In this document: positions 11,987 through 33,780 of the stretch, one piece after another
How the letters are laid out: each line of letters begins with the position of its first letter
How positions within the stretch are numbered: position 1 is the stretch's first letter
Assembly (NCBI RefSeq): GCF_024494725.1
Contig: NZ_JANHDK010000001.1
Location: 1,364,001 to 1,428,000, forward strand
DNA: 64,000 nucleotides
Reading direction: 5' to 3'
Origin: Haloplanus ruber
GTDB taxonomy: Archaea > Halobacteriota > Halobacteria > Halobacteriales > Haloferacaceae
Position numbers and translations under genes: made by a program
The notes under the pieces: model-generated
Database searches by the model: none
Told to the model about the DNA's origin: nothing
Seen by the model: the letters and a program-made list of their open reading frames with translations, nothing else

Positions 11987-12915
11987 AGGAACTCCTCTTC
12001 CAACCAGGAACGGTATCGCTTATGAATTGAGGACTCATCGGGGTTGATACTTTTCGCCTCTTGCCGCGCTTCATGAACTTTGGGACTCCGGGGAACGTAC
12101 GAGGGATCGAACGTTTTCCCCTCTTCCCCGACAGCCCTATTGAGCGACTGCGCGATATCGCGAGCTGTTTTGCGATCCCACTCGACACGTCTCCGTAGCC
12201 AGCGTTCCAAGCCCTCCACATCATCTTCGCTCAGGGGGACGGTTCCAAATTCATCTTCGCGTCCGAATATCTGGCCGAATACACTATAGAGGGGCAGATA
12301 CGGCGCGTCCGGGAGTACGTCGAATAACTCCTCGGTCGTCTCGATTGATTGGCCGGTCACGAATGCGTAGATATTCGCGTTGTCGTGGAGGAAGATGTTC
12401 ATCGTATCCAAGAGCGGGAATCCCCAACCAGCGTTCTCGTATATCGACTCGAATCCGTTGTACAGGCGTTGGTAGGAACCGACAGCCTCGACGAACTGTT
12501 CTTGATATAGCGGGCGTTGTCCTCCCCGAGGAGTGAATCGCTTGGAATCAGTAACGATGAGAAGCGTTTCCGGAACGGACGAGTACCGGCTAACTAGGTG
12601 ATCGACCGAGTATTGTGTCTCCGACTCGTAATACTCGTTAGAGATGACGACAAGATCGTCATCGAACGCTTCCTCTTCGATTTGGCCGAGAACCTTGTAT
12701 TCGTACTCGAGGTAGTCGTACTGCTGTGAATACGACTGGAACTGTCCACCCGTATTGAGGGTGCGCCAAGACGTCGGATAGGTGAACGTCTCGAAGCCAA
12801 GATAGTGAATGGCCGGAAGCGACCTGAGGAGCCACCAGTACGTCTCGTCGACATCGTCGTGAATAACTGCGACGTCGGCGTTGCGTAGCCGTTTGAAGGT
12901 CGCCGGTTCGTCCAT
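11983..12915 (-). CDS. Hypothetical protein of the helicase operon
   Basis: The 310-residue protein is not recognised. The first about 150 residues alternate hydrophobic strands and helices (VAVIHDD near 14-20, DLVVISNEYYE near 87-97, LLIVTDS near 117-123), like a Rossmann-type or receiver-type fold. The last about 80 residues are charged and helical and end in WLEEEFL. There is no HKD (phospholipase D) motif, so it is not a DpdK/DrmC equivalent. The start codon shares one base with the stop of the helicase gene (TGATG), and the end overlaps the DpdG-like gene by 4 nt. It is therefore co-translated with the helicase and probably forms part of the same complex. Confidence 0.7.
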   Translation of the reverse strand: MDEPATFKRLRNADVAVIHDDVDETYWWLLRSLPAIHYLGFETFTYPTSWRTLNTGGQFQSYSQQYDYLEYEYKVLGQIEEEAFDDDLVVISNEYYESETQYSVDHLVSRYSSVPETLLIVTDSKRFTPRGGQRPLYQEQFVEAVGSYQRLYNGFESIYENAGWGFPLLDTMNIFLHDNANIYAFVTGQSIETTEELFDVLPDAPYLPLYSVFGQIFGREDEFGTVPLSEDDVEGLERWLRRRVEWDRKTARDIAQSLNRAVGEEGKTFDPSYVPRSPKVHEARQEAKSINPDESSIHKRYRSWLEEEFL

Positions 12916-15900: not shown

Positions 15901-17645
15901 TAGTGACACCGCTTGCAAAACTGGAGTTCGAGGTTCTCCGTGTTACAGGAAATACACCGTTTATCTCGGGTGACTTCACTGCACGCCTCGCACAGATACG
16001 CTCTGTGTGGCGGCTTGAGGAAGACGTGATATTTCTCCGTGATCATCCCAGCAAGTCGACCGAAAGCCATCACCGTACCCAGAACTCCTTCTGGATTTTC
16101 GACACCCGTCTCGGAGAGTTGTGTGAGAAGTTCGTCGTAGTGCTTGAATCCGACTTCCCCTGTCGTTCCTTCGTTGAACCACTGCGCGAATTCGGCAACC
16201 TCAGGAACCGAGTCGACGACGAAGTCGAACCACTCGCTGTATAGTCCACCGGCATCTAGGATTGCTTCGGAGAGCCGGTCATGGCCTCGGGGTGATTCGG
16301 CTACCGCACGCGGTGATTCGAACTCGCCTTCCGAAATGAGCGTCTGCGTTTCACTTCGGATGGGTGCTCGAATCCACTCAGCGTCAACCGAGAGCACTAT
16401 CTCTCCACTTGATTCCACTTCGACGAGCCCAACCTCGCTTGCTGTTTCGAATGCGTCTTCCAGTTCTTGCTCTCTCAGATCCGAAACCGTGACCCCACCC
16501 ACTCGTGCGAGCGCGATAACAGCCGCAAGGCCAGTTACATCCGTAGCTGTGAATCGGTTAAACCGAGGACGCCCGTTAACCGGAAATTCGCGGGGTGTGA
16601 ATCCGATTGAATTGATGTCGGATTCCGGCGTACCGGTGAGTTTGTGAGCGAGTTCGGTCGGATTATCGACCGTTGCCGAAACCATCGAAATCTGTGGATC
16701 GCGATCACCGTAAAACTCCTTGAGTCGTTCGGAGAGAAGACGAATTGACGCTCCAGAAATGCCGCTCCAGACGTGCGCTTCGTCGAAAACGATGTGCTCG
16801 ACGGGATGTTGTGCTGGATTTTCGCCAAGGATTTCGCGAGTCTCCGAATTGTTACTCACGAACATGTGGTCCAAAGCTTCGGGGTTCGTGAGGAGGATAT
16901 CAGCACCGTTCCGAATGGCGTCCCGCGTTACTCTGATCCACGAATACCGATTATCGTCGGTACCGACTGTCATATCCCCGAGTATGCGTAGCTTCTCGCC
17001 TTCCTCTCGTGGACACTCAAGGCCCCGAATATAGGAACCCTCCTCGATCTCGTGCTCTCTGGTACCGATACGAGTCGGTGTGTCGGAGTCCCAGATTCCG
17101 ATTGTGATTCGGTCTTCGGGTTCTCGATACCGATTAATTCGGTCAAGATACGAAATGAACCGGTTGAGTTGATCGACACCGAGCGTTTTCATCGGATACA
17201 CAATAAGTGACTTCAGACCCGACTCTTCGGTAGAGAGACAATGATTCAAAATCGGGAAAAAGAACGCCTCTGTCTTCCCTGTCGCCGTTGGGACGGCGAG
17301 GATGTTGTCATCCGAATCGGCTGAAATGGCCTCAATTGTCTGTGCCTGATGCTCGTATAATGATCCAGTTTCGTTTCCGTCGAATAGTTCGTCAACGATC
17401 GCCTCGACTAGTTCGTCGCGGTACCCGAGATCAGCCAGAAAGTCGGCAGCAGGTTGCTCGTAGAACTTCGGTGCATCGACAAATTCGACGTACGGCCCCT
17501 TCTGCTCCACGATTTCGTTCTGGACGAACGAGGTAGCGGCTTCGTCATCGACCACATGGTTAAGCCGCGTCATCTGTCGATTCCACCAAGTAATCTCCGA
17601 CGCTCTGTCGACCGCAGCTTCGAGGGTTCGTTGTGGGGAGTGCAT
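12915..17645 (-). CDS. DEAD/DEAH-box helicase with C-terminal DUF1998, DruE/DrmB/MrfA-like
   Basis: The 1576-residue protein has Walker A PTATGKT at 119-125, DEAH at 288-291, SAT at 323-325 and motif VI QRSGRTGR in the second lobe. Several zinc-ribbon CxxC pairs follow: CEAC/CISC/CKRC/CPGC in the 560-640 region, then CTDC/CPNC and CPHC. The end carries a DUF1998-type domain with CDRC...CDEC. This layout is that of the YprA/MrfA family and of large helicases in defence systems (DrmB, DruE). It opens the five-gene minus-strand operon and is probably the motor of the restriction arm. It is longer than typical MrfA proteins (about 750 residues). Its own promoter (TATA on the minus strand at 17,687-17,693) lies in the 57-nt gap from the upstream gene. 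Confidence 0.85.
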   Translation of the reverse strand: MHSPQRTLEAAVDRASEITWWNRQMTRLNHVVDDEAATSFVQNEIVEQKGPYVEFVDAPKFYEQPAADFLADLGYRDELVEAIVDELFDGNETGSLYEHQAQTIEAISADSDDNILAVPTATGKTEAFFFPILNHCLSTEESGLKSLIVYPMKTLGVDQLNRFISYLDRINRYREPEDRITIGIWDSDTPTRIGTREHEIEEGSYIRGLECPREEGEKLRILGDMTVGTDDNRYSWIRVTRDAIRNGADILLTNPEALDHMFVSNNSETREILGENPAQHPVEHIVFDEAHVWSGISGASIRLLSERLKEFYGDRDPQISMVSATVDNPTELAHKLTGTPESDINSIGFTPREFPVNGRPRFNRFTATDVTGLAAVIALARVGGVTVSDLREQELEDAFETASEVGLVEVESSGEIVLSVDAEWIRAPIRSETQTLISEGEFESPRAVAESPRGHDRLSEAILDAGGLYSEWFDFVVDSVPEVAEFAQWFNEGTTGEVGFKHYDELLTQLSETGVENPEGVLGTVMAFGRLAGMITEKYHVFLKPPHRAYLCEACSEVTRDKRCISCNTENLELQFCKRCHYPYVEVKVSGDEDTFRPFDHAESVDSCPGCEQWPNLSDIGVPTSSLLSYMLTEICRTSPSKKTLVFSDSHSAAESVGDRIIGTEYGLMAQTLYIEELIDSGGSRDNYELFRTVADRLREEYWEPLIQNEIDEDGTAYNFLRTLLDDIEGHAMLHNATGLLDSALVTAAPVSEFDDPREIVIAHETYKLFATDPGVGFSKNNISIEGLSLPKIINRVAKRSGYDRGDVGSVVPKVLQRLLNQSIVVEQSWEEVRQTVANASISDEKKQATFDYLERVRDEYADAVDSESDAESGILTRVLRRDDSNLTLLERTAFCTDCYRSYPVPEDDAIDTCPNCGHPLETHRRFTREDDGSLAVDPGYAQADSGWPYAIDHWAHDITTPIRNGNSPEFISVGIHKGNIPHTLRGAIEEGFRKDDPDVNIVSSTPTMELGVDIGTLDTVSQVGIPPTLTNYVQRSGRTGRTRGSSSLVLTAIRGEHPVDGHYYGNLETFLNEFEPVRVPDPYEFDEILTGHVVTETFAYLARNPHPSNIFERMYQLTEINQNLGAFVNGVEENLGILVDFLLDERRDALERHIESVFGQPGVDAFEQAFVEDGPLSVSNRVEKTFSRITALSGSAETNKAFTENNNRLDQWLSRLGYLANYRSFGQQFPVKFQGHSEGIEFEASGRLYDMYPGPENDLGSVITLHGTDYIVDDVHGSSTPLATVMVCVNEDCDRPFESYSHDAAQCPHCDESLEETNVHGVSSVECKPAKGGQRMYNTHGLMATSITSENSARPQNTSSRSVFGLSCDASYGELEITDFIFAFERRHSASPDKEVLRSEALIEQDSTTEDSGRSWQERLEDADTEEYAPVGQQYHTQGITLRFDFDDVRNRFDRLTHETASWPQALVSLEQALDKAIAVVAQCDRSDFRVKANKEETEVVVRIVDSRQGGNGIAWQVWNAIDDIESRVAEIAACDRCDDYCDECLLLSRTPAYYLENDLLDNRTLGEIIGAESH

Positions 17646-17702: not shown

Positions 17703-20700
17703 CTATTCGCCGACATCGAGTTTGATACGCATGGCGATTTGGTCGCTGATACCGTCAAGAGACGTTAGTTGATCCACGGACGCGCTCCGAAGGTCGTCCC
17801 GCGACTCGAAGCCCTCCTGTTGCAAGGTAGTGGAAATCTGCTCCGTGACTCCACCTACGTCAAGCAAGTCGTCCGATGGTGGATTCGTCGTTGATTCTTG
17901 GTCATCCTCTTCATCGTCCCCGTTATCCTCGCTTTCATCTTCCTGATCGTCACCCGCTGCCGGTGGCTCTAACGGAAGACGTTCTAACATACCGATTGCC
18001 CGTTCCAGTTCATCTTCAGTTTCGACGATCACGGGAAAGGTGGCGTTCGTCTTCGCATCGACAGGGAGATAGAAAGTGTCGAGATCGGCTATAAGGAACC
18101 GACCGAGAAACGTCTGGAGGGTTGGGATAGGAGGGCAAGTGGAGATGCAGCTGAACTCCGTCACACGATCTCCATTGCCGAATTCTTGGCGGTACTCGCG
18201 CATCGAAAACGGGTTTCGGTCTTTTTGCTGAGCACCGTAGTTGTCTACCTCAATCGATTCACCGGACCATCTCTTTTCGATAGCATCGAGCCACTTCTCC
18301 ATCGGGTCCCTCTGCCGACTGGTCGTTTCATCAGAGGATTCGTCATGCATATTAATTACAGATTGACACAATGATCGGAGGTTCCGGAGAACCTCGTACC
18401 TCTCGGATAGCTCGTTCTGACCGATTGTCGGTGGTTCCGTTGTGGTACCTGGGTCTGATTTGGTGTCGTCTCCTGCAGAGTTAGCGGCAGCGAGCGCGTC
18501 ATCCCAACTTTCGAAGAACTTGTATATTACTCCTGACGAATAGGGTGCAACAGACGCAAAATAAGACATGTTTGGCCGTCCATCGGCAGAATCCTTGGCC
18601 TGTTGGACGTAATCGATCACAGACTGTTTCAGATCAAGTCCTGCTTCTCTGAGGGCGTCATCGATGCTTCCGAATTCCCTCTGGTACTCGTATTGAGAGA
18701 ATTCTCCGTGCTTGTCAATTTGTATCGTGAGAGGAACGAATCCACACTCCTCTCGTACTCTTCGGAGATCCTCAAGAAGCTCTTGGCGAGAAATCGTTTC
18801 GATGGATGCGGCGTCAATCGCGCTGTCCCACGAATCGAAAAATTGGTACACGTCCGAGGTGCTGTACGTTGAGTGCTTGTGGTAGTCACTCGTAGATGGA
18901 CGCTTCCCTAATTCCTCTGAGACCCGCTCTAATTCGGCGAGGACGTCTTCGCGTGTCGGATCAGAAACGTCAGGTGAGGAACTATCCTCGGGAGTCTCGG
19001 AGTTTGTCCCAGATGTACCTGCATCCTGCTCAGTTCCCCTCTCACGTGTTGCTTCTTTTTTCACATCATCGAAGGCAATTGCTATCGCCTCCTCATACGT
19101 TCCAAATTCGTGTTCGAACGCCGATTCGGAGTAGTTAGAGAATTTTCGAACGTGTACTGGATCTGGAGCCTTTTCGAGACGGTTCCGGATTCTTTGGAGA
19201 TCGCTGATGAGTTCCGAGCGACTGGGGGAAGGCGATTTCTTCTGTGTTTTTTCCGGTTCATTCTCGGGGAATGAGGAACGAGCCCCGTCTGAACGCTCTC
19301 GCTGGGTCTCTGATGATGAGTTGTCGGTCTGATATTGATAGTTTCGTCTCTGTGGTCTCTCCGAATCCGAGGCGGTTGAAATCTCTGCTTGATACTCTTT
19401 GAGACGAGCCGTCGAGCGTTCTAGCTCATTCGCGGCCGTCAACGCATTATCAATGGACGACTGAACATCGTCTAGCGTCTCTTGTGGAATATGCATTCCA
19501 TTGTCTGCAAGAGATAGATACCGCTTTGCCTCGGCATAAGCGGTGGTGATCTGTTTGAGTTTGCTCAGCTTCCCGTTGACACGAGTGACTACATCCTCGA
19601 CCTGTGATGTTCGAATACCTGGCTCGTCGGCGATGCATTGGAGCTCCTCTTTCGCCGTCTCTAACCGTGAGGTTGCGTCGGCGAGATCGTCCTCACCGGT
19701 ATCGACATCGTTTATCGTCCAAGCTGCGTGTCGTGTCGTCTTGCGGGTGTTCTCGGAGAGTTGTTCCGAATCCCCGACAAAGACGGTTTCCGGTCCACTC
19801 TGTGGCTCATCTGCGCCGGAATCACTCGTATTCTCAGGCCTCGTCTCAGAGACGGTCCTCTTGGAACTCTCTGACTGACTATCGTCAGCATCGGCAGCTG
19901 AGGAAGAAAATTGGTCAGTCGACGTTTTTTCTTCCGGATCAGTGTCTCCCTGATCAAGTTCGCTCAGCGCTCTATCAAGGCGGTCGATAGCGTTCTCCAC
20001 CTGTGATGCCCGAATTCCTGGTTCGTCAGCGATGCGTCGGAGTTCCTCTTTTGCAGTCTCTAACCGTGGGATTGCATCGGTGGGGGCGTCCTCACTGGTA
20101 TCTACATCATCGATTGTCCAAGCCGCGTGTCGTGCTGTTTCACGGATGTCCTCAGCGAGTTGCTCCGAATCTCTGACGAAAACGGCCTCCGGTCCACTCT
20201 GTGGCTCGTCTCCGCTGGAATCATCCCCGCTCGCGGAACTCATTCTAGAGGCCGTCGCCTCCGTACTTTCCGATTGGCGGCCGTTGGTGTCGGGAGGAGG
20301 AGACAGTGGCTGCCCGGACCGCGTTTCCTCACTGGGGTCCGTCCCTTTGTCGTTCGTAACTGGGACGAATTGTTCCCGAACGTACTCAACGGCACCTCCA
20401 GGATCTGACGACTCCCGTTTCTTGACGCCGAATTCGTACTGTTTTGAGGAAGTTTCGAAAGTGATGGTTGTCGTTAAAAACCCGCTCTGTAGTTCTACAC
20501 CGGAGATGTCATTGATATCAACTTCGAGAAACGTATCACCCTCATCATCACCAATGAGGAAGAAGATACGACGATTCGTAATTGCTACTAGAGCACGGTA
20601 GCTCCCGCTGGGGGATAGTCTATGAGATTGGTTCGATTCCTTCGACGTAATCGCGACTCCGTTCGACCGACTTACGAGAAGGAAATGAATCGTCTCGTGG

Positions 20701-20861
20701 TCGTCCAGCCTCTCGTAAACGGAACTGTCCGCGAGATAGGCCTTGGAGAATAGGCCCGACCTCTCGCCAGTAAACATCTGGAGGTCAATCGATCCTTTCG
20801 CTTGAGAGAGCAGGGTGTCCGGATCGGGCTTCTCATCTGGAGGGGTATTCGGGCTTTCCAT
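17703..20861 (-). CDS. Multidomain protein: PH-like domain, tandem duplication, four HNH-associated repeats, helix-hairpin-helix
   Basis: The 1052-residue protein has a bacterial PH-like domain (about 40-165, with TNRRIFFLIG and the strand FLTTTITFETSSK). Two tandem copies of an about 85-residue unit follow (219-303 and 352-436). Next are four repeats of the type associated with HNH/homing endonucleases (about 551-597, 637-684, 692-740 and 746-793; consensus L..L..v...LG..P....y.....YS......F.sWd.A...A). The end has helix-hairpin-helix sequence (about 1005-1052), and an acidic Asp/Glu tract precedes it. No nuclease motif (HNH, PD-(D/E)XK) is visible. These are DNA-recognition parts without a catalytic part, so it may guide or sense DNA for the neighbouring helicase operon. 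Its start faces a long non-coding stretch, from which the modification genes run the other way. Confidence 0.8.
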   Translation of the reverse strand: MESPNTPPDEKPDPDTLLSQAKGSIDLQMFTGERSGLFSKAYLADSSVYERLDDHETIHFLLVSRSNGVAITSKESNQSHRLSPSGSYRALVAITNRRIFFLIGDDEGDTFLEVDINDISGVELQSGFLTTTITFETSSKQYEFGVKKRESSDPGGAVEYVREQFVPVTNDKGTDPSEETRSGQPLSPPPDTNGRQSESTEATASRMSSASGDDSSGDEPQSGPEAVFVRDSEQLAEDIRETARHAAWTIDDVDTSEDAPTDAIPRLETAKEELRRIADEPGIRASQVENAIDRLDRALSELDQGDTDPEEKTSTDQFSSSAADADDSQSESSKRTVSETRPENTSDSGADEPQSGPETVFVGDSEQLSENTRKTTRHAAWTINDVDTGEDDLADATSRLETAKEELQCIADEPGIRTSQVEDVVTRVNGKLSKLKQITTAYAEAKRYLSLADNGMHIPQETLDDVQSSIDNALTAANELERSTARLKEYQAEISTASDSERPQRRNYQYQTDNSSSETQRERSDGARSSFPENEPEKTQKKSPSPSRSELISDLQRIRNRLEKAPDPVHVRKFSNYSESAFEHEFGTYEEAIAIAFDDVKKEATRERGTEQDAGTSGTNSETPEDSSSPDVSDPTREDVLAELERVSEELGKRPSTSDYHKHSTYSTSDVYQFFDSWDSAIDAASIETISRQELLEDLRRVREECGFVPLTIQIDKHGEFSQYEYQREFGSIDDALREAGLDLKQSVIDYVQQAKDSADGRPNMSYFASVAPYSSGVIYKFFESWDDALAAANSAGDDTKSDPGTTTEPPTIGQNELSERYEVLRNLRSLCQSVINMHDESSDETTSRQRDPMEKWLDAIEKRWSGESIEVDNYGAQQKDRNPFSMREYRQEFGNGDRVTEFSCISTCPPIPTLQTFLGRFLIADLDTFYLPVDAKTNATFPVIVETEDELERAIGMLERLPLEPPAAGDDQEDESEDNGDDEEDDQESTTNPPSDDLLDVGGVTEQISTTLQQEGFESRDDLRSASVDQLTSLDGISDQIAMRIKLDVGE
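19554..19808 (-). repeat. Second copy of internal 85-codon tandem duplication
   Basis: It encodes residues 352-436 of the PH/HNH-repeat protein and closely matches 19,953-20,207. Shared stretches include EPQSGPE, RHAAWTI, DVDT and ADEPGIR. The similarity at the nucleotide level suggests a fairly recent duplication. Confidence 0.8.
19953..20207 (-). repeat. First copy of internal 85-codon tandem duplication
   Basis: It encodes residues 219-303 of the PH/HNH-repeat protein, the partner of 19,554-19,808, with a spacer of about 48 codons between the copies. Confidence 0.8.
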
Positions 20862-21723
20862 CGGTAACTACGGAGCCCAACACATTCGATGTAACTCGTT
20901 CACTGTGCCTCTGTTTCCTCTACTGGCACGGCATATCATATAAGTTGAGCCTACCACGGGGCGAGAAGTGACATTTAGATGTCGAGAGAGGTCTTCCAAG
21001 ATTGGTACGTGGATCGGACTTATTTCGAACCAACTCATCAATGTGTGATTCGTATTGGATATAGTGAGCAATCCGGAGAGATGCCTCCTGGTCGATTCCG
21101 AACCATTACTCTACTGTACATGGTACAATCTTGTCGGGTGATTGTCTCCTCATATCTGCTATTTTCCCTTAATTGCTGCCTCGAGCGCAGGATCGCAGAA
21201 TCTTGTGAATGTGTGCTCCATCGTGATGTTCAACGCACCGGCAACTATCCATGACTCGGCGGTGTCGGAGGAATCGAGGAGCGGGAGGCCCCTTCGGCCA
21301 TCTCTTTGACAGGGTAGTGTTCGTAGTCATCACGTTCGACTTGGCCGAGAAATCTCGAGTACAACCGCACCGATGGCGGCTTCGAATCCGCCGGAGGTGT
21401 CTCGATTCTCCGAAGAAGTATCGTCACCGGTGGGTCCAACAGCTTTCGGGAAGGCGTCCACGTACCGGTCGATTAGTATCAACTCTGATCTCGTACGTGT
21501 GAATATTTATCATGATTCTAAGTCACGGGGAGAGGCTCTCCGATATAAATCGACAATTCCGATGCCAATTCTCTCTGACGAGACTGGACCTCTCGAGTGA
21601 CGGAGATAGCGCTGGATTCTCTCATCGGCACCGAAATATAAGATGGAGGTAGTTGCGGCTTCACTCGCCTGCGGCGGCATGACTTGGGAAAGCTTCAAGC
21701 CGGTGTGGTCTCAACGGCAGGGT
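20862..21723. other. Long divergent non-coding region between restriction and modification genes
   Basis: No gene is convincing here. The region separates the minus-strand PH/HNH-repeat gene from the plus-strand modification genes and should hold both promoters. A TATA-like AAATATAAG lies near 21,632-21,640, and a minus-strand TTATATGATATG lies near 20,933-20,944. A GC-richer patch at 21,245-21,439 could be a gene fragment on the minus strand, but I cannot identify it. Confidence 0.4.
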
Positions 21724-22200
21724 ATGTCGATGTTGCTGGTGCAAGGGTGTTCTAAATCGAAAAATCAGCCGGAGGAGGCCATGTCGGCGCTGAATCTGTA
21801 CACTGGATACTTCTTCAAAATTATCAAGAAAGCGATGAGAGAGGATGCGTTCGACGACCGGGTCGACGTGTGTATTCTCTCTGCTGAACACGGGATTATC
21901 GACCCCGATGCTGAGATCACGTGGTACGATCGAAGAATGGATGCCGACCGTGCAGCGGAACTCGCTCCCAAAGTACGAGAAGATCTTCGTGAAAGGATCA
22001 CCGGCGACTACGATCGCGTCATTATCAATGTTGGGAGCGTTTACCGGCGGGCAATCGAAGGTGTTGACTCGTCAGTAGACGCCGACATACACTATATCGA
22101 AGGAGAAGGGATTGGTGTCAAGGGCCATATTCTCAAGCGTGTTGTACGAGGCGAAGTAGAAGCTGTATTTCAGACAGCCGAAGCGGCAGGTGGCTGTTGA
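21724..22200 (+). CDS. YaaA/DUF6884-like protein, first gene of the TGT operon
   Basis: From ATG 21,724 the protein has 158 residues; in-frame ATGs at 21,679 and 21,643 are possible, but the conserved part begins at once with MLLVQGCSKSK. The GCSxSK start, LSAEHGII near residue 60 and the strand VIINVGS are features of the YaaA/DUF6884 fold, which also underlies the catalytic core domain of archaeosine synthase. The full PCX3KPY signature is absent: the cysteine and first lysine remain, but KPY does not. The stop shares one base with the start of the transglycosylase (TGATG). It probably works with that enzyme, either on the inserted base or as a specificity subunit. A DpdC-like role is conceivable but not shown. 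Confidence 0.7.
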   Translation: MSMLLVQGCSKSKNQPEEAMSALNLYTGYFFKIIKKAMREDAFDDRVDVCILSAEHGIIDPDAEITWYDRRMDADRAAELAPKVREDLRERITGDYDRVIINVGSVYRRAIEGVDSSVDADIHYIEGEGIGVKGHILKRVVRGEVEAVFQTAEAAGGC

Positions 22201-23441
22201 TGGCGAAGGCACGTTCTACGGGCACATTCCGCTTCGAAGTGAAGGAAAGAGCGGGAGATGCTCGAACTGGAGAACTATTCGTCAAGGACACGCAACTTTC
22301 CACCCCGAATCTATTTCCAGTTATCAACTTCTACGCCGGGGGGATGGAACGGAGCGTCTACGGTGGTGGTGTACACCGAACAATAAAGGAGCTGATGATT
22401 GGTGCAGATCGGGTCGGTATCGGCCCCCTCTCAGAGTATTTCGACGCGACGATGATGTCCGTCTCTTCACTCACCGATTACAATATCTCACGCGAGCGCT
22501 ACGAAGATTACCTTGCCGCACCGATCAAAGAGCGTGATCTTTTCGAGCCGTTCGATGGTCTCCTCTTCACGGATTCGGGTGGTTTCAAATTCTTGAATAA
22601 TGCGGAGATAGACGGAAGCGACTTCGAGGTGGAAATGAATCAAGAAGCGGTGTACGAGATTCAACAGGCGCTAGGTAGCGATATCATCGTCAACCTTGAT
22701 CACCCAATCGCCCCTGACGACACCCACCAAGATCGTGTCGAAAAGGCCGAAAAGACGGCGGCGAACATCCACAAATTCCTCACACTCACTCGGGATTTTG
22801 ACGGCGCACAGTATCTCACCCTGCACGGGTACAATTACTCGATGATGGACGAGTTCCTCGACGTCATTACTGATCGCGTTCCTGCCGGTGTTCTCCGGGA
22901 AGGTTTTGACGGGATCGCCCTTGGAAGCCTCGTACCCAAGAAAGACGACCGTGGTGCGCTGATCCAAGCCGTCACCGACTGTCGCGAGGTGATGGTCGAG
23001 TGGGGGATGGAAGATTGGCCGCTACATGTTCTCGGAATCTCCAGCCGGGCAATCCCTCTGCTGGCCGGTCTCGGGGCAGATACATTTGACTCGAGCACTC
23101 ACCTTCACAATGCCATCAACAGGAAGTACCAGCAATCGTTGATGGAAACCATATCGATAGATGAAGTGGATTTCAGTGAGTGTGACTGTCCGGTTTGCCA
23201 GTCCGACTTGCTCGTACAGCGAATGAAGGGAGACGCCAAGTATCAGAAGGACATTCTCGGGCCAGTCGCGATGCATAACCTGATCATCCAAAAGCGGGAA
23301 TTAGCGGAAATTCGACAACGGATTCGACAGGACGGAACGAAGGCCTTAGTCGAATACTTCGAGAAGACGTTCAGTAGAGATAAGACGATGCGGCGATTCG
23401 CCCATCAAGTAGTCAATCAGTCTCTCGGAGGATATTTCTAA
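22200..23441 (+). CDS. DpdA-like 7-deazaguanine DNA transglycosylase (TGT family)
   Basis: The 413-residue protein from ATG 22,200 is a queuine/archaeosine tRNA-ribosyltransferase fold. The DSGGF substrate loop has D125 (TDSGGFK, 124-130). The GIALGSLVP strand (238-246) corresponds to the base-binding GG loop. The second aspartate is in GADTFDS (D297), and a zinc site is formed by C328, C330, C333 and H359. Both catalytic aspartates appear intact. It lacks the PUA domain that archaeal tRNA TGTs use to bind tRNA, and its neighbours are defence genes, so DNA is the likely substrate, as in DpdA. It probably exchanges guanine for preQ0. It is coupled to the DUF6884 gene upstream and the GHKL ATPase downstream by 1-nt overlaps. 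Confidence 0.85.
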   Translation: MAKARSTGTFRFEVKERAGDARTGELFVKDTQLSTPNLFPVINFYAGGMERSVYGGGVHRTIKELMIGADRVGIGPLSEYFDATMMSVSSLTDYNISRERYEDYLAAPIKERDLFEPFDGLLFTDSGGFKFLNNAEIDGSDFEVEMNQEAVYEIQQALGSDIIVNLDHPIAPDDTHQDRVEKAEKTAANIHKFLTLTRDFDGAQYLTLHGYNYSMMDEFLDVITDRVPAGVLREGFDGIALGSLVPKKDDRGALIQAVTDCREVMVEWGMEDWPLHVLGISSRAIPLLAGLGADTFDSSTHLHNAINRKYQQSLMETISIDEVDFSECDCPVCQSDLLVQRMKGDAKYQKDILGPVAMHNLIIQKRELAEIRQRIRQDGTKALVEYFEKTFSRDKTMRRFAHQVVNQSLGGYF

Positions 23442-24997
23442 TGAAAAAGTCACCCAAGGTCAACGAGGTCAACGAATTTCTGGAAATCGCGAGCGACTTC
23501 GAAGATCCCCTCGAAGTTCTCCGCGAATCGCTGTCTAACGCATACGACGCAGGAGCGACTGAAGTCGATATCACGATACGCAGTCGTCCCAACGGCTCCG
23601 ACATCGTAATCGAAGACGATGGTCACGGGATGAACGAGCGCGATATAGAGTCGTTTTTCGATCTCGGGAATTCGCGGAAGACGGACTCGATCGGATACAA
23701 AGGCCACGGAACGAAAATCTTCTACAAAAGCGATCGGATTGAAGTCACCACGGTCCATGATGGAACGAGCTATCGGGCGGTAATGGACGATCCGTGGCGG
23801 AAGCTCAATCGGAAAGAACTCCCCGAGTACGAGATGACGGCTGAATCGGTTCGCCGCGGGAATCCCGGAACCAAGATCAAAATCACCAACTTCCGCTCCG
23901 GCCACGGATTCGACGCCGAGGAACTCACGTACAACAAGATCCACCATTATCTGAAGTGGAAAACCATCGCTGGATCGACCGCCCATTACTTCGGAGACGA
24001 TCAGCGTGAGATGGAGATTACGGTCAATCTTGACGACGAGATTGACAATACCTGCGACGAGCTAACCACGACGAACAGGCTGGAATTTCCCGACGAACAA
24101 CTTGAGCCAGGCAACAACGAGTACCCCGCTAAACGGATGTGCAAACACTATCCTGCGCGGGAAATCGACATCGAATACGAGAACGGCCAGACGACGCTCC
24201 AAATTGTAGGGATGGTTGGCGGGAAGGATACTCGGAATGAATTACCGACCTACGGCCGCCATTCGGCGCAGTTCGGAATCTGGTTCGCGAAGGATCATAT
24301 CAAGGTCGAACGCCTGAACGAAGCAATCTCTCACGACAACGAGTTCATCCACTTCTTTTTCGTCGCCAACTGCCAAGATATCGAACTCTCCGCGAACCGG
24401 GAAACGATTCGAAACAAGGCCAGTCCTGTGTACCAAGCCCTCGAGCAAGAGGTCGAATACTATCTTTCGAAGGTGACACAGGATCCGTGGTTCAAAGAGT
24501 ACCTGCAAATTCGAAAAGAGGGGGAACACCGACGACGGTCAGCTAGTCAACGCTCGTCGCTCAAAGACCGGCGTGAACGGATCGAATCGGACGGATTTCA
24601 GCCGAGTAACAAAGCTGAGGTGTTACTTGGACTCGAACGAGCAAGCAATCAGAGCGGCTCTCTATCCCTGACTGTCGAAGACTTCGATCCCGAGGCGGAT
24701 GTGCATGCGATCATCCGACAAGATGGAGCGCTCCGGAACGCGGCAGTTCACCCAAACCTCACAGGTCTCTTCGAAGACGAAGTTCCGCTCGAAAACACGG
24801 AGGTTGCCGTGTGTTGGAATCAGGGCGATCCCGCGGAACTGCAGGAGTACGAACGGAACGGCTATTTCGGCGGGGAAGTCTCGATCCAGCTCGACAACGG
24901 TGGGATTCGATATCAGAACGGGGACAGCCACTTCATCGAAGTCATCCAGGTGGAGGATTTACTTCAAACGAAATCCGCGCCACCTGCTGACGATTGA
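23441..24997 (+). CDS. GHKL-family ATPase (Hsp90/MutL/MORC type)
   Basis: The 518-residue protein has the Bergerat-fold motifs: N-box ESLSNAYDAGAT (residues 29-40), G1 DDGHGM (near 59-64) and G2 GYKGHGTK (near 83-90). A transducer-like middle region follows, and the C-terminus is unrecognised. There is no phospho-acceptor histidine or HNH domain, so it resembles MORC/MutL-type clamps rather than a sensor kinase. A GGAGGA ribosome-binding site at 23,427-23,432 precedes the ATG, which shares one base with the stop of the transglycosylase. Bacterial DpdA needs the ATPase DpdB; no DpdB is present here, so this ATPase may replace it as the energy-coupling or DNA-clamping partner. That replacement is my inference. 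Confidence 0.8.
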   Translation: MKKSPKVNEVNEFLEIASDFEDPLEVLRESLSNAYDAGATEVDITIRSRPNGSDIVIEDDGHGMNERDIESFFDLGNSRKTDSIGYKGHGTKIFYKSDRIEVTTVHDGTSYRAVMDDPWRKLNRKELPEYEMTAESVRRGNPGTKIKITNFRSGHGFDAEELTYNKIHHYLKWKTIAGSTAHYFGDDQREMEITVNLDDEIDNTCDELTTTNRLEFPDEQLEPGNNEYPAKRMCKHYPAREIDIEYENGQTTLQIVGMVGGKDTRNELPTYGRHSAQFGIWFAKDHIKVERLNEAISHDNEFIHFFFVANCQDIELSANRETIRNKASPVYQALEQEVEYYLSKVTQDPWFKEYLQIRKEGEHRRRSASQRSSLKDRRERIESDGFQPSNKAEVLLGLERASNQSGSLSLTVEDFDPEADVHAIIRQDGALRNAAVHPNLTGLFEDEVPLENTEVAVCWNQGDPAELQEYERNGYFGGEVSIQLDNGGIRYQNGDSHFIEVIQVEDLLQTKSAPPADD

Positions 24998-25023
24998 ACT
25001 CGCCGAAGTAATCGGGGCGAGAG

Positions 25024-27030
25024 CTACTTGCTGTCACGGGAGGGGACTGTCCGCTCGTCAAGATGGTCGAGTAACTCTTGGATATTGCTGTTACGGAAGT
25101 ACTCGGTGAGCTGGAGCGCCTGCGGATCCCGCGGGAGGACGGTTCCCTGACCGTACGCATCAAAGGCGTCTTCAACGACCTGTCGGTAGGTCTTGCTCGT
25201 CACGTAGGCGACGATTTCGTCGAATTGATCACCGTACTCCTCCAGATAGCGGAGTACGCGATCGGTCACAAGTGTGATCTGATCATTGTCCTCCTTCGCG
25301 AGAACGTAGTCATATTCCAAGACCGGCTGTTCTCGCTCGAATTCTTTTGGGACAGGTCCGTACATGCCCGAGACGGTTAGCTTATGAATTCGGCTCGTTC
25401 GGTCGCCCAGCTTATCGAACAGGACGGAGTGTGTGCGGGATTCCGAGTATGGTTTCTTTTGACTACACGGGATCAACAGGAGAACATCTTTGTCCGCTGG
25501 CGGCTCGTGAGAACGAGTGAAGATATTGAAATCGTTTGGGCTATACTTGAGTGAGATCCGTCGGTTGTTAGTCGATTCGTCGACACCGGCGTCCCACTGG
25601 GATAGCTTCGCCTGATCGCTGGTGAGAGTTGAGCCTGGGAGAAGATCGTACGCTTCCCGTGCCTCGATATCTTGGCGGAGTCTCTTGTCGCGTAGTTGGG
25701 CCTCTTTGAGACCCTTCTTGATATCGTCGTGGTCGCGTGCGAAGTCGATGACGTAGTCCAGAAGTCGCCCATCCTGAATCGCTTCACGGACGTGTCTGAG
25801 TTCTTCATTGTAAAGCTCGAAATTGTGACGAGCCAATAGCGCGTAGTAGTCGCTCTTGATTGGCTCTCCGTTCTCTTTGCGCTCTTGGCGTTCGTCGTAG
25901 CTGAGATCAGTATTCAGTTCTTCTAGTAGGGTTTCATAGTCAATGCCGTCGTCACCGCACAGCGTACACTCGGGGAGGTCACAGGGAAAGCTCCCATCCG
26001 GCCGGAGATGTTCCTCAAGTTCTTCGAGCTTGTAGTGTGACCACGTCTCCGGGTGAGTGTACTTCTTGTATCGTGCAGTCTGCATATGCGTTGAACAATC
26101 GAACGAGTCGACACCGAGAAGAGAGAGCAGACCGACCTGTTTCCCTCCGACACCGAAGACGTGGAGGCCGATTTCGTCGGAGTGTGCCTCTGGGATTGCG
26201 TCTTTCGCTCCTTGGACAATATCCACAAGAACGTCGATACTGCTTCGTAATGGAACTAGCGAGCCGATAGCGAATCCTTCGAATGAACTTTCGATATTGA
26301 CTTCTTCAACGCGATCAAGGAAATTCCCGACATACCAGTTGATTGTCTCGTAGTCATGGCCGTGAAGGGCGATATAGACTCCCGGCTCTTCGCCAGCGGC
26401 TTTTTGTGCCCGAAGCCGATCAGCGGCACGGCTGTTAATATCGAAATTCTCCTCTAGGAGTGACGGGTCATCGAGAATGCGGAGACATTCGACAGCACTG
26501 TCGATGCTCTTGTTCATCCGTTCGACAGTCTCGTCATCTCGAAGGTTCGGCGGAATGGGGTAGTCCAACGTTGCGACGATGTCCGCCCCGAAATCGAGCT
26601 GCAGACCGAGGATACTCTTCGGATCGGTATAGAGTCCCCATTCGTTGGGGACGCCACCTTTCTCGGGGGCGTCACCAAACGTGTTCGAATTCATCAGCTT
26701 GAATCCTCCCGAGTCGATGAAGATGGGTGCGTTCAGATCCTCAAAGCGTTCGTGAAACGTTTCAGTTCGCCAGAAGTCGTTTAGGTTGTCTGGAGAGACG
26801 CCATAGTCGGTGAAACTCATCGCCTGAAACATTATTCCTTGAAGGTGATCCTTCGAAATGAGCTTGTCCCGCATCCGACGCCACACGCCTCCGGATTTCT
26901 CCGTAGTACCGCCGATCAGGTTGACGACAGGAAAGAGAACAGGTGTTTCGACAGGGCCGTGAGGAACGTCAAGTTCCCCGAGTCGACCATAGCCATCGTC
27001 TCCGACGAGTTTCACGCTGAACGATGCCAT
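25024..27030 (-). CDS. DpdA-like transglycosylase fused to ArcS-type DUF5591 domain
   Basis: In the 668-residue protein, residues 1-420 are a TGT fold with D106 in FIDSGGFK, strand GFAIGSLVP (252-260), D311 in GVDSFDCSTH and a zinc site C350/C355/C358/H402. Residues about 512-640 are an ArcS-like domain with the full archaeosine-synthase signature PCX3KPYX2SX2H: P521, C522, K526, P527, Y528, S531, H534. GMYGPVPKEFE follows near 555-565. In tRNA ArcS this motif joins lysine to preQ0, and the TGT half of ArcS is catalytically dead; here both halves look intact. No PUA domain is visible. It may insert preQ0 into DNA and convert it to a lysine adduct, with a radical SAM enzyme such as host RaSEA needed to reach archaeosine. 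It converges with the GHKL gene, 26 nt apart. Confidence 0.8.
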   Translation of the reverse strand: MASFSVKLVGDDGYGRLGELDVPHGPVETPVLFPVVNLIGGTTEKSGGVWRRMRDKLISKDHLQGIMFQAMSFTDYGVSPDNLNDFWRTETFHERFEDLNAPIFIDSGGFKLMNSNTFGDAPEKGGVPNEWGLYTDPKSILGLQLDFGADIVATLDYPIPPNLRDDETVERMNKSIDSAVECLRILDDPSLLEENFDINSRAADRLRAQKAAGEEPGVYIALHGHDYETINWYVGNFLDRVEEVNIESSFEGFAIGSLVPLRSSIDVLVDIVQGAKDAIPEAHSDEIGLHVFGVGGKQVGLLSLLGVDSFDCSTHMQTARYKKYTHPETWSHYKLEELEEHLRPDGSFPCDLPECTLCGDDGIDYETLLEELNTDLSYDERQERKENGEPIKSDYYALLARHNFELYNEELRHVREAIQDGRLLDYVIDFARDHDDIKKGLKEAQLRDKRLRQDIEAREAYDLLPGSTLTSDQAKLSQWDAGVDESTNNRRISLKYSPNDFNIFTRSHEPPADKDVLLLIPCSQKKPYSESRTHSVLFDKLGDRTSRIHKLTVSGMYGPVPKEFEREQPVLEYDYVLAKEDNDQITLVTDRVLRYLEEYGDQFDEIVAYVTSKTYRQVVEDAFDAYGQGTVLPRDPQALQLTEYFRNSNIQELLDHLDERTVPSRDSK

Positions 27031-28200: not shown

Positions 28201-28659
28201 ATGTCTGAGAGAATACCTGGATCATATTCTGGAAGCATACTTACCGACGCTGGTGAACGAACACTCCATATCGGAGATGACCATCCGATACGGATTAGTG
28301 CCGGGCATCGGATTCAACACCACGAGGGGAAGTGCAGCCGACCCCATGGGCACAACTACGAAGTCTCCGTCTCACTAACTGGAGAGCTCACGGAAGCGGG
28401 CTGGGTCGTCGACAAAGGTGACGTAACTACGGTCATCAACGAGTGGGATCACCGATTTTTACTTGAAGAGGGCGACCCACTCATCGATGCCTTCGAACAG
28501 TCGAACGATCGTGATGCTGTCGTCATTCTCGACTACCCGCCGACAGCGGAAGTAATGAGCGTCATCCTCGAAGAGCGTCTCCAAAACGAACTACCTGATA
28601 CTGTCTCCGATGTCTCCGTCCAAGTGGCAGAAACAGGTGAACTCTGCTCCGGGTACTGA
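28201..28659 (+). CDS. queD: QueD-like 6-carboxy-5,6,7,8-tetrahydropterin synthase
   Basis: The 152-residue protein belongs to the PTPS/QueD family. The zinc histidines are in SAGHRIQHHEG (His near 38) and the CSRPHGHNYEV segment. The CX3HGH arrangement supplies the catalytic cysteine and two zinc ligands typical of QueD. The C-terminal CSGY end and the ETGELCS segment also fit the family. It turns 7,8-dihydroneopterin triphosphate (the FolE product) into CPH4, the second preQ0 step. It is the first gene of queD-queE-folE-queC, 3 nt before queE, and is expressed from its own leaderless promoter. In this context it feeds the DNA transglycosylases. Confidence 0.92.
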   Translation: MSERIPGSYSGSILTDAGERTLHIGDDHPIRISAGHRIQHHEGKCSRPHGHNYEVSVSLTGELTEAGWVVDKGDVTTVINEWDHRFLLEEGDPLIDAFEQSNDRDAVVILDYPPTAEVMSVILEERLQNELPDTVSDVSVQVAETGELCSGY

Positions 28660-28662
28660 TCT

Positions 28663-29439
28663 ATGCCAGTCAACGCAGAATCCCATCCCGAAAGCGGAGA
28701 TCATGATATCGATGGCGACGCTCTCCCCATCAACGAAGTTTTCTACTCTCTTCAGGGCGAAGGAAAACTTGCCGGAACGCCGTCGGTATTCATCAGAACG
28801 AGTGGTTGCAATCTCCGGTGTTGGTTCTGTGACTCATACCATACATCTTGGAAGCCGACCCACTCGTGGATGTCGATAGAGGATATCATCGACGAAGTCC
28901 GTACCTTCGATGAGGCAGACCATGTTGTCCTCACCGGCGGTGAGCCCCTAATCCACGAAGAGAGTGTCAAGCTGCTCGACGAACTCGCCGATTACGGCTA
29001 TCACACGACAGTCGAAACGAACGGCACAATCTATCGCGATACGGCAATTGATCTTGCAAGTATCAGTCCGAAACTTCGGAGTAGCACGCCGACTACCGAA
29101 CGCGACCCAGACGGCGAGGGAGAGTGGGCTAACCGTCATGACAGCCGGCGAATTAATCTGGATGCACTCAGACAACTCGTTACGAATTACGAGAGCCAGC
29201 TAAAGTTCGTCATCACGGGTGCCGACGACTTCGAGGAGATTACCGATCTTGTGGAACGCGTTCGAAACCAGACTCAGATAGCTGTACCTGATGACGATGT
29301 GCTACTCATGCCGGAAGGAAGAACACGCGATGAACTCGCCGACACGCGTACTACTGTCGCCGAATTAGCGATGGATCACGGTTATCGATACACACCTCGA
29401 CTACACGTCGACCTCTGGAACGATGCCTCAGGTACCTGA
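28663..29439 (+). CDS. queE: 7-carboxy-7-deazaguanine synthase QueE (radical SAM)
   Basis: The 258-residue protein opens its core with NEVFYSLQGEG, the QueE signature. The radical-SAM cluster motif is CNLRCWFC (CX3CX2C), followed by the SAM-binding LTGGEPL segment. It converts CPH4 to 7-carboxy-7-deazaguanine, the third preQ0 step. It is not RaSEA (the archaeosine-synthase partner), since the length and the SLQGEG start are those of QueE. It lies 3 nt after queD and 2 nt before folE, so all are co-transcribed. Confidence 0.93.
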   Translation: MPVNAESHPESGDHDIDGDALPINEVFYSLQGEGKLAGTPSVFIRTSGCNLRCWFCDSYHTSWKPTHSWMSIEDIIDEVRTFDEADHVVLTGGEPLIHEESVKLLDELADYGYHTTVETNGTIYRDTAIDLASISPKLRSSTPTTERDPDGEGEWANRHDSRRINLDALRQLVTNYESQLKFVITGADDFEEITDLVERVRNQTQIAVPDDDVLLMPEGRTRDELADTRTTVAELAMDHGYRYTPRLHVDLWNDASGT

Positions 29440-29441
29440 TC

Positions 29442-30074
29442 ATGGCAAATGAAGACACCCACCTCATAGAGACGAATCGTAGCTCCGATTCCAAGAACGG
29501 AGAATCGACAGCGATCGACCACGAGAAGGCTCAGCGAGGAGTACGACTTCTTCTGGAGGCGGTGGGCGAAAATCCTGATCGGACGGAACTCACGGAGACG
29601 TGGAAGCGTCGAGTTCCGGACGTACTAGAGACGTTTAGTGAGGGTGAGCGTCTCGAGGACAAACCAACCATGCGAACATTCGATGCGGATTCGGATGGGC
29701 TAATCGTCAAGACCGGTGTACCCGTGTACAGTCTTTGTGAACACCATCTGCTCCCGTATCACGGGAAAGCCCACGTCGCTTATCGACCCGAAGATCAAGT
29801 CGTCGGCCTCTCGAAACTTCCGCGATACGTTCGATGGCAGTCACGCCGGCTGACGATGCAAGAGCAGTTGACTCGTGATATCGCGGATGGCCTCGCTGAC
29901 GAAATTGGTGCGGAAGCGGTGTTGGTAGAGATCACGGCCACCCACATGTGTGAAGCCATGCGCGGCGTCGAGACAGCGACAGCGACAACGACTCGGGCGA
30001 CAGTCGGGTCTCCGACGGATACGGAACAGCGGCGCTTCAGAGACGCGATTCAGCGAGCGGAGGATTCAACATGA
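29442..30074 (+). CDS. folE: GTP cyclohydrolase I
   Basis: The 210-residue protein is a type I enzyme. The zinc ligands are in CEHHLLPYHG (Cys and His, near residue 97) and THMCEAMRG (second Cys). GLSKLPRYV and RLTMQEQLT are further family motifs. It hydrolyses GTP to dihydroneopterin triphosphate, the entry to preQ0. The first about 35 residues are a variable acidic extension. Many haloarchaea use the unrelated MptA for this step, so a FolE here suggests the island brings its own complete supply line. It overlaps the queC start by 4 nt. Confidence 0.93.
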   Translation: MANEDTHLIETNRSSDSKNGESTAIDHEKAQRGVRLLLEAVGENPDRTELTETWKRRVPDVLETFSEGERLEDKPTMRTFDADSDGLIVKTGVPVYSLCEHHLLPYHGKAHVAYRPEDQVVGLSKLPRYVRWQSRRLTMQEQLTRDIADGLADEIGAEAVLVEITATHMCEAMRGVETATATTTRATVGSPTDTEQRRFRDAIQRAEDST

Positions 30075-30769
30075 ACACCGAAGAGAAACGGGCAGTAGTA
30101 CTAGTCTCCGGCGGGATGGATAGTGCGACGGCTGTTGCTGAGGCACGCGACCGTGGCTACGAACCGTACTTTTTCCACACCTCCTATGGCCAGCAGACCG
30201 AGGATAGAGAACTCGAGTGTGCCCGACAGCTAGCCGATGATTTCGATGCAGCGGACTTTCTCCACGTCGAAACTGAGCATCTAGCGCGGATCGGTGCATC
30301 CTCCCTAACGGACGACGAGATGGATGTCGCTGAAGCCGATCTCGAGAGCGACGAAATCCCGTCCTCGTACGTCCCGTTCCGGAACGCAAACCTCCTGTCG
30401 ATGGCTGTGTCGTACGCTGAAGCGAACGACTGCACTGCCGTCTTCATGGGTGCACACTCAGAGGACTTCTCCGGATATCCTGACTGTCGGCCGGAGTTCT
30501 TCGAAGCGTTCCAGCACGTCGTCGACGTTGGGACGAAGCCGGAGACGACGATCAGTATTGAAGCACCGTTCACCGAATGGTCGAAGACGGATATCGTGGA
30601 ACGGGGACTCAAACTCGATGTCCCGTTCGAACACACGTGGTCGTGCTACCGAGAATCCGAGCCAGCCTGTGGTACGTGTGACGCGTGTGCCTTCCGTCTT
30701 CAGGCGTTCCAACGGGCCGGTGTCGAGGATCCGATTGGATACGCTGAGCGGCCGAGTTACGTGGAGTAA
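30071..30769 (+). CDS. queC: 7-cyano-7-deazaguanine synthase QueC
   Basis: The 232-residue protein has the PP-loop SGGMDSAT (residues 13-20) for ATP, and a C-terminal zinc site in the segment CYRESEPACGTCDAC, with four cysteines as in QueC. It converts 7-carboxy-7-deazaguanine to preQ0 using ATP and ammonia. No Gat-like amidotransferase domain is fused, so the product is preQ0 itself. It is the last gene of the four-gene operon. The product would be used by the two transglycosylases at 22-27 kb. Confidence 0.93.
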   Translation: MNTEEKRAVVLVSGGMDSATAVAEARDRGYEPYFFHTSYGQQTEDRELECARQLADDFDAADFLHVETEHLARIGASSLTDDEMDVAEADLESDEIPSSYVPFRNANLLSMAVSYAEANDCTAVFMGAHSEDFSGYPDCRPEFFEAFQHVVDVGTKPETTISIEAPFTEWSKTDIVERGLKLDVPFEHTWSCYRESEPACGTCDACAFRLQAFQRAGVEDPIGYAERPSYVE

Positions 30770-32745: not shown

Positions 32746-33780
32746 TCAATACGCCGTCGTTCGTGTGATATGGATGGTTCCGTCTATCTCGTCGCGCATT
32801 TGGAAGAGTTTGTAATCTAGATGGGGTGCGTAGACAGAAGAGTCTCGGCAGTCCATGAGTTTCTCAATGAGTTCGTCACCCGCATGGACGGTTGCCGCCC
32901 GCAGTTCGACTTCTTCTCGGCTTCCCGCTTCAATCATCGTTCGGGAATCGACTAATTCGGCGAGGTGATCTGAATACTCAAGCACGCCTAATTCACGAAG
33001 GACGTTGGGCAGATTGTAATCGACGAATAGCGTGAATGCACCAGGATCTTCGACTCGAAAGCACTCCTGATTTTGAAAACGACCGTAAGCCATTCCAGCC
33101 GCAAGTTGAGCGCGTTTCCAGAACGCGACTTCAAGTGCAGATCCATCAGCGAGGGTTACAGCGCTGGAATCATCGAATGAGGGCAAGTGAGTAACTAATC
33201 GATCTACAATACCATTTCCGTCGGCGTATAGGCACGGTTCCGCAGAATCGATGAGGTTTGCGAATCGACCGTCGTACTGATTGGAGAGGTTCTCGCCGAC
33301 TTGCGTGAGAATTTGATGACGTTCCTCGAGCATCGGAATCTCGTCACCGTCAGCAGGCTCGAACAGTCGTTCTACGTCAGAGAGGGACAAGTCGGAAAGC
33401 GTGTCGCCGCGTAGGATAGCAGGGTTATCATCGAATTCGCGGCGCAAGCAGGCCCACATAGCGAACGCGCCGCTCCACTCGGTTCCTGCATAGGTAGCGG
33501 TGAACTTGTCACCGGTGTCGTAATCGCGGAACTGAAAATTGATCGTATTGCCAAGAAACAGAAAATCTATAATATCCCTTTCAGAGACGCCCGAAGAATT
33601 CTCGTCGGGGAACACCGGAGCCCGCCACTCCGGGAGTGAGAATTCGTCTGCGGCTAGCCGTTCGGAGAGAAGTTCGATTGCTCCCTCTTGGATGTCCACG
33701 AACCTAAGCTCCGGAACTAGCGTTTGCACGCTCTCCCTGACGAGAGTCGTCGGGAGAGCTTGATTACCGGATGTACCCAT
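32746..33780 (-). CDS. Qng1/DUF2419-like queuosine-nucleotide N-glycosylase homologue
   Basis: The 344-residue protein matches the queuosine salvage protein family (human QNG1/C9orf64) across its length. The order of motifs is GNTINFQF (77-84), WSGAFAMWACL (102-112), PMLEERHQIL (149-158), FWKRAQL (220-226), FTLFVDYNLPNVL (249-261), LGVLEYSD (264-271) and REEVELRA (288-295). Known members cleave queuosine 5'-monophosphate to free queuine. Archaea are not known to make queuosine, so here the natural target may be another 7-deazaguanine nucleotide, such as those released from modified DNA, giving base back to the transglycosylases. A role on DNA is possible but speculative. Substrate unproven. 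Confidence 0.8.
   Translation of the reverse strand: MGTSGNQALPTTLVRESVQTLVPELRFVDIQEGAIELLSERLAADEFSLPEWRAPVFPDENSSGVSERDIIDFLFLGNTINFQFRDYDTGDKFTATYAGTEWSGAFAMWACLRREFDDNPAILRGDTLSDLSLSDVERLFEPADGDEIPMLEERHQILTQVGENLSNQYDGRFANLIDSAEPCLYADGNGIVDRLVTHLPSFDDSSAVTLADGSALEVAFWKRAQLAAGMAYGRFQNQECFRVEDPGAFTLFVDYNLPNVLRELGVLEYSDHLAELVDSRTMIEAGSREEVELRAATVHAGDELIEKLMDCRDSSVYAPHLDYKLFQMRDEIDGTIHITRTTAY

Follow-up and report, generated by a model that had tools for sequence, protein, structure and literature searches.

We describe here a transglycosylase (TGT) cassette in a 64,000-nucleotide stretch of Haloplanus ruber (assembly GCF_024494725.1, contig NZ_JANHDK010000001.1, positions 1,364,001 to 1,428,000), which we call the window and whose positions are used throughout unless another contig or locus is named. 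Region 21643-27030 holds, on the plus strand, overlapping or adjoining genes for a DUF6884 protein, a stand-alone TGT (TGT1) and a GHKL ATPase, and on the minus strand a second, longer TGT (TGT2). The reading we prefer, to which we would give an even chance of being right, is that of a Dpd-like DNA-marking cassette encoded by the host, whose two TGTs are non-redundant and write two different 7-deazaguanine marks. The gene content, intact sites, motif identity, selection, co-occurrence and module exchange reported below are direct observations.

Two intact transglycosylases with different partner domains

TGT1 (22197/22200-23441, plus strand; 414 residues from a TTG start, 413 from ATG) matches PF01702 at 3.3e-25, and TGT2 (25024-27030, minus strand; 668 residues) combines PF01702 (4e-26) with PF17884/DUF5591 (4.7e-21). 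The GHKL and TGT2 genes converge with a gap of 26 bp, and TGT1 and TGT2 are spaced 1.6 kb apart. The proteins are homologous over 375 columns at 29% identity (hhalign 100%, E 1e-61). In a survey sample of 292 genomes of the class, TGT1 was found in 30 and TGT2 in 28. The TGT1 active site is invariant in 30/30 genomes (D126, D168 and D298; zinc ligands C329/C331/C334/H360). TGT2 consists of a TGT domain at ~1-440 (D106, D156, D311; C350/C355/C358/H402) and a DUF5591 domain at ~505-630; its aspartates and zinc histidine are kept in 28/28 genomes and its three cysteines in 26-27/28. Since dS is saturated between the window and its nearest relatives, we used close pairs for selection analysis, which yielded dN/dS values of 0.035-0.071 in TGT1; within TGT2, the TGT domain has 0.024-0.073 and the C domain 0.055-0.113. 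Invariant sites together with dN/dS of 0.02-0.11 rule out a redundant or dying copy, and both TGTs are apparently active, to judge from their residues. Both guanine pockets have His in place of Gln (TGT1 H210, TGT2 H223), which we do not claim to be the His196 signature of DpdA; most DpdA proteins compared here retain Gln at that position.

The fused domain of TGT2 carries a complete ArcS motif at 521-534, PCSQKKPYSESRTH, the ArcS signature reportedly having been defined by Phillips et al. 2010 as PCX3KPYX2SX2H. Its P, C, K, Y and S are present in 28/28 TGT2 sequences and its H in 26/28, so that the motif is complete in 26/28. The host ArcS carries the same pattern, PCSARKPYSDSQSH, and has lost the TGT active site, while the host TgtA has a degenerate version of the DUF5591-type domain that lacks the motif. 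Residues 508-625 of TGT2 match the NCBIfam ArcS model NF040592 at 8e-33, with 113.8 bits, below the full-length cut-off of 440. By sequence, the C domain is thus a domain-level relative of ArcS, not ArcS itself. Like the archaeal tRNA enzymes, TGT2 places a DUF5591/C1 domain after the TGT domain. Unlike them, it combines the TgtA active site with the ArcS motif, each of which one of those two enzymes lacks, has none of the tRNA-binding C-terminal parts that both carry, and falls in a separate clade. TGT2 therefore looks like a TGT that keeps both chemistries in a single chain with no matched PUA part; a Pfam search matched no PUA domain in either TGT1 or TGT2. The best solved-structure relative of the island TGTs is the archaeal tRNA TGT 1iq8, on which the TGT part of the TGT2 model (pLDDT 81) superposes with Z 33.5 and 2.7 A over 348 residues. 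TGT chains take up the VIA structure list for TGT2, which therefore barely probes the C domain; by sequence, this domain matches AF0587 (2q07). Among Protein Data Bank entries, the TGT2 profile (25024-27030) picks up Cap10 (9ntn) as well (E 0.0085).

TGT1 and its partner genes form an invariant unit: DUF6884, TGT1 and GHKL occur together in 30/30 TGT1 genomes. The DUF6884 protein (21724-22200, plus strand; PF21818 1.1e-13) belongs to the Pfam family assigned to dpdC (PMC11888242). Its reading frame opens at 21643 (185 residues), and its conserved start is ATG 21724. Invariant across the 30 genomes, in the numbering of the 185-residue frame, are C36 and K40 (CxxxK) and S80, A81 and G84 (SAxxG), the motifs given for DUF6884 in PMC11701544. 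The PADLOC DpdC model reaches it only at 0.008, and its profile found nothing significant among solved structures. At TGT1-only loci of a Natrinema-containing genus, a second and more typical DUF6884 gene (PF21818 5e-38; L153:7262-7708) lies upstream of the cassette. The GHKL ATPase (23441-24997, plus strand; 518 residues; PF13589, HATPase_c_3, 2.4e-15) has intact and invariant motifs (N-box E29/N33, DxGxG at 59-63, GxxGxG at 85-90). Its predicted model (pLDDT 74) resembles the ATPase modules of TopoVI-B, MORC and GyrB with Z ~15, as would suit a DNA clamp worked by ATP that could stand in for DpdB.

These results bear on a preliminary description of the window. Its two TGTs of 413 and 668 residues, different in architecture and convergent, are borne out by the reading frames, the Pfam matches and the 26-bp gap, and its coupling of the shorter one to DUF6884 and GHKL by the unbroken triple. 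It had also assigned TGT2 a DUF6884/ArcS-like domain in cis, of which the ArcS half holds (a DUF5591 domain with the full motif) and the DUF6884 half does not. The further idea that the same two parts appear once split and once fused fails, as DUF6884 and DUF5591 are different families; it is true only at the level of a distant superfamily. Its suggestion that the two TGTs may make different bases gains support, since the partner domains point by homology to different chemistries, DpdC-type hydration and ArcS-type lysine transfer. An inactive copy, which it had named as an outcome that would refute it, is at odds with the conserved catalytic and zinc residues and the low dN/dS.

The host encodes its tRNA enzymes elsewhere (TgtA at C3:205677, ArcS at C3:208930, RaSEA at C3:236825), so the island TGTs are surplus to tRNA modification. 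Neither passes the TgtA model TIGR00432 (cut-off 350 bits; TGT1 105, TGT2 101). Phylogeny places TGT1 and TGT2 in two clades outside the tRNA TGTs and DpdA. In a tree of 54 TGT domains, TGT1 forms a clade with support 100 and TGT2 one with its cyanobacterial homologues (91), separate from tRNA TGTs (99) and DpdA (100); it is a quick tree with long branches that does not fix the order among clades. No viral relative was confirmed in IMG/VR for either protein, and INPHARED held none for TGT1 and a single 22% match, in a phage, for TGT2. Given these results, we dropped a viral origin of the TGTs.

Co-occurrence and probable partner exchange

Across the survey sample, 27 genomes carry both TGTs, three TGT1 only, one TGT2 only and 261 neither (Fisher p 1e-33, kinship ignored). 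A 31st TGT1 match, in genome G236, was counted as TGT2, as it is that genome's own TGT2. The TGT1-only genomes (G028, G142 and G290) all belong to the Natrinema-containing genus, and G290 additionally has a second, short TGT; G236 is the TGT2-only genome. Both genes are kept in some genomes although 12, 28 or 179 kb apart. Being kept together almost always is consistent with non-redundant roles. The convergent arrangement seen in the window is ruled out as a conserved trait, with 9 of the 27 pairs convergent, 16 tandem and two divergent. On a Haladaptatus plasmid (L213:22139-35418), TGT2, a second TGT-DUF5591 protein of 654 residues and TGT1 occur together with a PLD-domain gene.

The two TGTs have probably not travelled as one unit. 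Evolutionary distances correlate at 0.91 between TGT1 and GHKL and at 0.76 between TGT1 and TGT2. Forcing TGT1 groupings on TGT2, or the reverse, was rejected (p-AU 8.4e-6 and 2.0e-7), with one such test at 0.126; the groups for these topology tests were picked after the trees were seen. The tree conflict indicates separate modules that have repeatedly recombined, and TGT2 has probably changed partners, to judge from the sequences. TGT2 also occurs outside the archaea: Planktothrix and one Oscillatoriales genome encode a full-length homologue (35-36% identity) that keeps the ArcS motif and is followed by GmrSD_N and HEPN genes, with no second extra TGT in the locus. A Coleofasciculus metagenome-assembled genome (L188:363-1963) has an N-terminal fragment resembling TGT2 and, after it, a DUF6884-type domain, the internal part being missing, possibly through an assembly fault.

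These patterns bear most directly on the alternative that TGT1 and TGT2 form one heteromeric enzyme, as QTRT1 and QTRT2 do, or serve one strand each of an asymmetric site, with a single base product. We regard this as unlikely, though it fares better than the other alternatives considered below. It would account for the near-obligate co-occurrence, and TGTs are dimers (PMC6884629). Two TGTs are also paired in Halorientalis, Nostoc and Picosynechococcus, where haloarchaeal and cyanobacterial plasmids carry a DpdA joined to a DUF6884-type domain, in varying domain order, beside a short separate TGT (L214:10919-14996, L246:12190-18371, L247:1074-7082). Such loci resemble the cassette in having two TGTs, one joined to a 7-deazaguanine-finishing domain. 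They differ in their TGT clades, in that no GHKL gene was seen, and in the identity of the longer protein, a true DpdA bearing a DUF6884-type domain. A Paenibacillus locus (L250) looks similar to these pairs, except that DCGS replaces DSGG in the short protein. Against the heteromer stand the occurrence of TGT1 alone in G028 and G142 and of TGT2 alone in G236 and in cyanobacteria, and the phylogenies, which conflict between TGT1 and TGT2 and agree between TGT1 and GHKL; the change of partners speaks against an obligate heterodimer. Moreover, QTRT2 is not known to keep a full TGT active site, whereas TGT1 and TGT2 both retain catalytic aspartates and zinc ligands, so they do not make a catalytic/non-catalytic subunit pair. 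The variant with one strand for each TGT may nevertheless hold.

A defence island with exchangeable candidate restriction modules

The cassette lies in a region with the composition expected of an acquired island: G+C is ~0.52 over window positions 1-35000 and 0.61-0.72 over 36000-64000. To its left, on the minus strand, an operon encodes a large DEAD/MrfA-type, DruE/DpdJ-like helicase that is a candidate restriction module (12915-17645; PADLOC DruE 1.5e-41, DpdJ 3.7e-25) and a DpdH-like P-loop ATPase of 954 residues (8284-11148; PADLOC DpdH 9.9e-14). Both have homologues at 17/30 related loci, the same 17. Proteins of 231 (7614-8309), 278 (11150-11986) and 310 residues (11983-12915) are encoded in the same operon, the first co-conserved with the ATPase and helicase genes and the other two with the operon. 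A further DpdJ-like DEAD helicase of 1357 residues (28-4101; PADLOC DpdJ 8.4e-46) is also on the minus strand. Next to the cassette, a 1052-residue minus-strand protein (17703-20861) combines bPH (PF14470), four HNH_repeat units of the homing-endonuclease-associated type (PF18780, 1e-40 over 4 stretches) and HHH (PF14520); about half the related loci encode partial homologues of this possible DNA-binding factor. The minus-strand 378-residue protein at 5528-6664 has a weak, below-cut-off match to the uracil-DNA-glycosylase superfamily (PF03167, E 0.0039) and no homologue at the 30 related loci.

On the other side, QueD, QueE, FolE and QueC (28201-30769, plus strand) would supply preQ0. QueC is the genome's only copy above the cut-off, so this operon also serves tRNA archaeosine. 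Close to the cassette lies an archaeal Queuosine-salvage family protein (32746-33780, minus strand; PF10343 3.7e-54) with no homologue at the other loci, which might release deazaguanine bases from degraded DNA.

At related loci, the cassette is found with exchangeable restriction modules: Druantia/Dpd-like as in the window, BREX-related capture (BRC; PglZ-HerA), GmrSD and DISARM-like. A PglZ-like phosphodiesterase, a large AAA protein and HerA stand beside it in genome G146 and, by matching gene sizes, likewise in G070, which gives these loci the BRC layout of PMC12839542. That paper reported no DpdC homologue and suggested dPreQ0 alone as the product, whereas in both genomes a DUF6884 gene lies between TGT2 and TGT1. 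The likeness to BRC is thus TGT genes beside PglZ, an AAA ATPase and HerA; the difference is that the window's module is Druantia/Dpd-like and that the cassette includes both DUF6884 and an ArcS-type domain. No PglZ or HerA was recognised in the scanned part of the window. A GmrSD protein neighbours the cassette in G028, G142 and G152, and DrmB-like and helicase genes do so in G056.

A two-mark model and its alternatives

The ArcS of T. kodakarensis transfers lysine to preQ0 nucleosides, after which RaSEA makes G+ (PMC11298593), and DpdC hydrolyses dPreQ0 to dADG, as summarised in PMC12839542. These two reactions lead to our model. Each TGT would swap a target guanine in DNA for preQ0, supplied by FolE/QueD/QueE/QueC, through a covalent aspartate intermediate. 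At TGT1 sites the separate DpdC-type DUF6884 protein would turn preQ0 into the amide (dADG), and at TGT2 sites the fused ArcS-type domain would attach lysine to the nitrile (dpreQ0-Lys); cleavage of this product by the host's RaSEA may subsequently yield archaeosine (dG+). Clamping or opening of DNA for TGT1, the task of DpdB in bacterial Dpd, probably falls to the GHKL ATPase. The left helicase/ATPase operon, in whose place relatives have other restriction modules, probably serves to attack unmarked DNA. We infer the DNA substrate, both product identities and the GHKL and restriction roles.

Several points weigh against the two-mark model. DNA as the presumed substrate is argued from genomic context. 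Because the genome has no other preQ0 operon, the closeness of this one to the cassette is weak evidence. The DpdA model NF041059 (cut-off 200 bits) gives TGT1 21.6 bits and does not match TGT2. In TGT2, the motif His is missing from two genomes and all three zinc cysteines from G123, and no protein of the left operon could be recognised as a nuclease with certainty. Finally, DNA binding is another property of the DUF6884/YaaA/DUF5591 fold, so the role of the partner domains could lie in targeting instead of catalysis.

This last point underlies a second alternative, namely that both TGTs write the same base in different sequence contexts with YaaA-like, DNA-binding partner domains. According to PMC11701544, the DUF6884/YaaA fold forms a positively charged cleft that binds DNA, and in the pairs compared the TGT2 C domain evolves somewhat faster (dN/dS 0.06-0.11) than the TGT domain (0.02-0.07). 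The putative catalytic Cys, Lys, Tyr and Ser of the ArcS motif are, however, invariant in 28 genomes and kept in cyanobacteria, and are not obviously needed for DNA binding alone; we find this alternative doubtful. Modification of RNA by one or both TGTs, for example at other tRNA positions, with coincidental defence neighbours, is quite improbable: the closest solved structure is a tRNA TGT and the nearby preQ0 operon is the housekeeping one, but the missing PUA match, the clades outside tRNA TGTs, the patchy, island-like distribution (the cassette is absent in the six other sampled genomes of the genus) and the repeated association with defence modules of at least four kinds all argue otherwise.

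We give the least credence to an ordinary bacterial-type Dpd system with TGT1 and TGT2 as merely divergent DpdA: the cassette shares with Dpd a TGT homologue, the DpdC-type DUF6884 partner, preQ0 genes and DpdJ- and DpdH-like helicase and ATPase genes, but has two TGTs, both outside the fully supported DpdA clade and below the DpdA cut-off, a second finishing domain, of ArcS type, that is part of one TGT, and a GHKL ATPase in place of DpdB (no match in the scanned window proteins), while a true DpdA system occurs separately in haloarchaea. Of the Dpd restriction genes DpdD-K, the window has DpdJ-like and DpdH-like proteins and no clear DpdD, DpdE, DpdI or DpdK.

For the two-mark model, the cyanobacterial homologues offer a specific prediction. 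Their genomes have QueC and lack RaSEA, which is present in 11/11 haloarchaea of the same search, so a DNA base ending at preQ0-lysine is predicted there. Tentatively, and with less confidence than in the model as a whole, we propose that TGT2 and its cyanobacterial homologues make dpreQ0-Lys in cellular DNA: as the final base in cyanobacteria, and in haloarchaea as the partner of TGT1-written dADG, with two marks per cell read by one restriction module. The natural TGT1-only and TGT2-only strains make the two-mark question directly testable. The DUF6884 gene in BRC-type loci amends the published view of BRC as having no DpdC-type gene. If the model is true, an archaeal host marks its own DNA with two different deazaguanines, one made by a lysine chemistry so far known only from tRNA, and the exchange of the cassette among restriction modules would give 7-deazaguanine the standing of a general self-mark that can be exchanged in the way methylation or phosphorothioation can.

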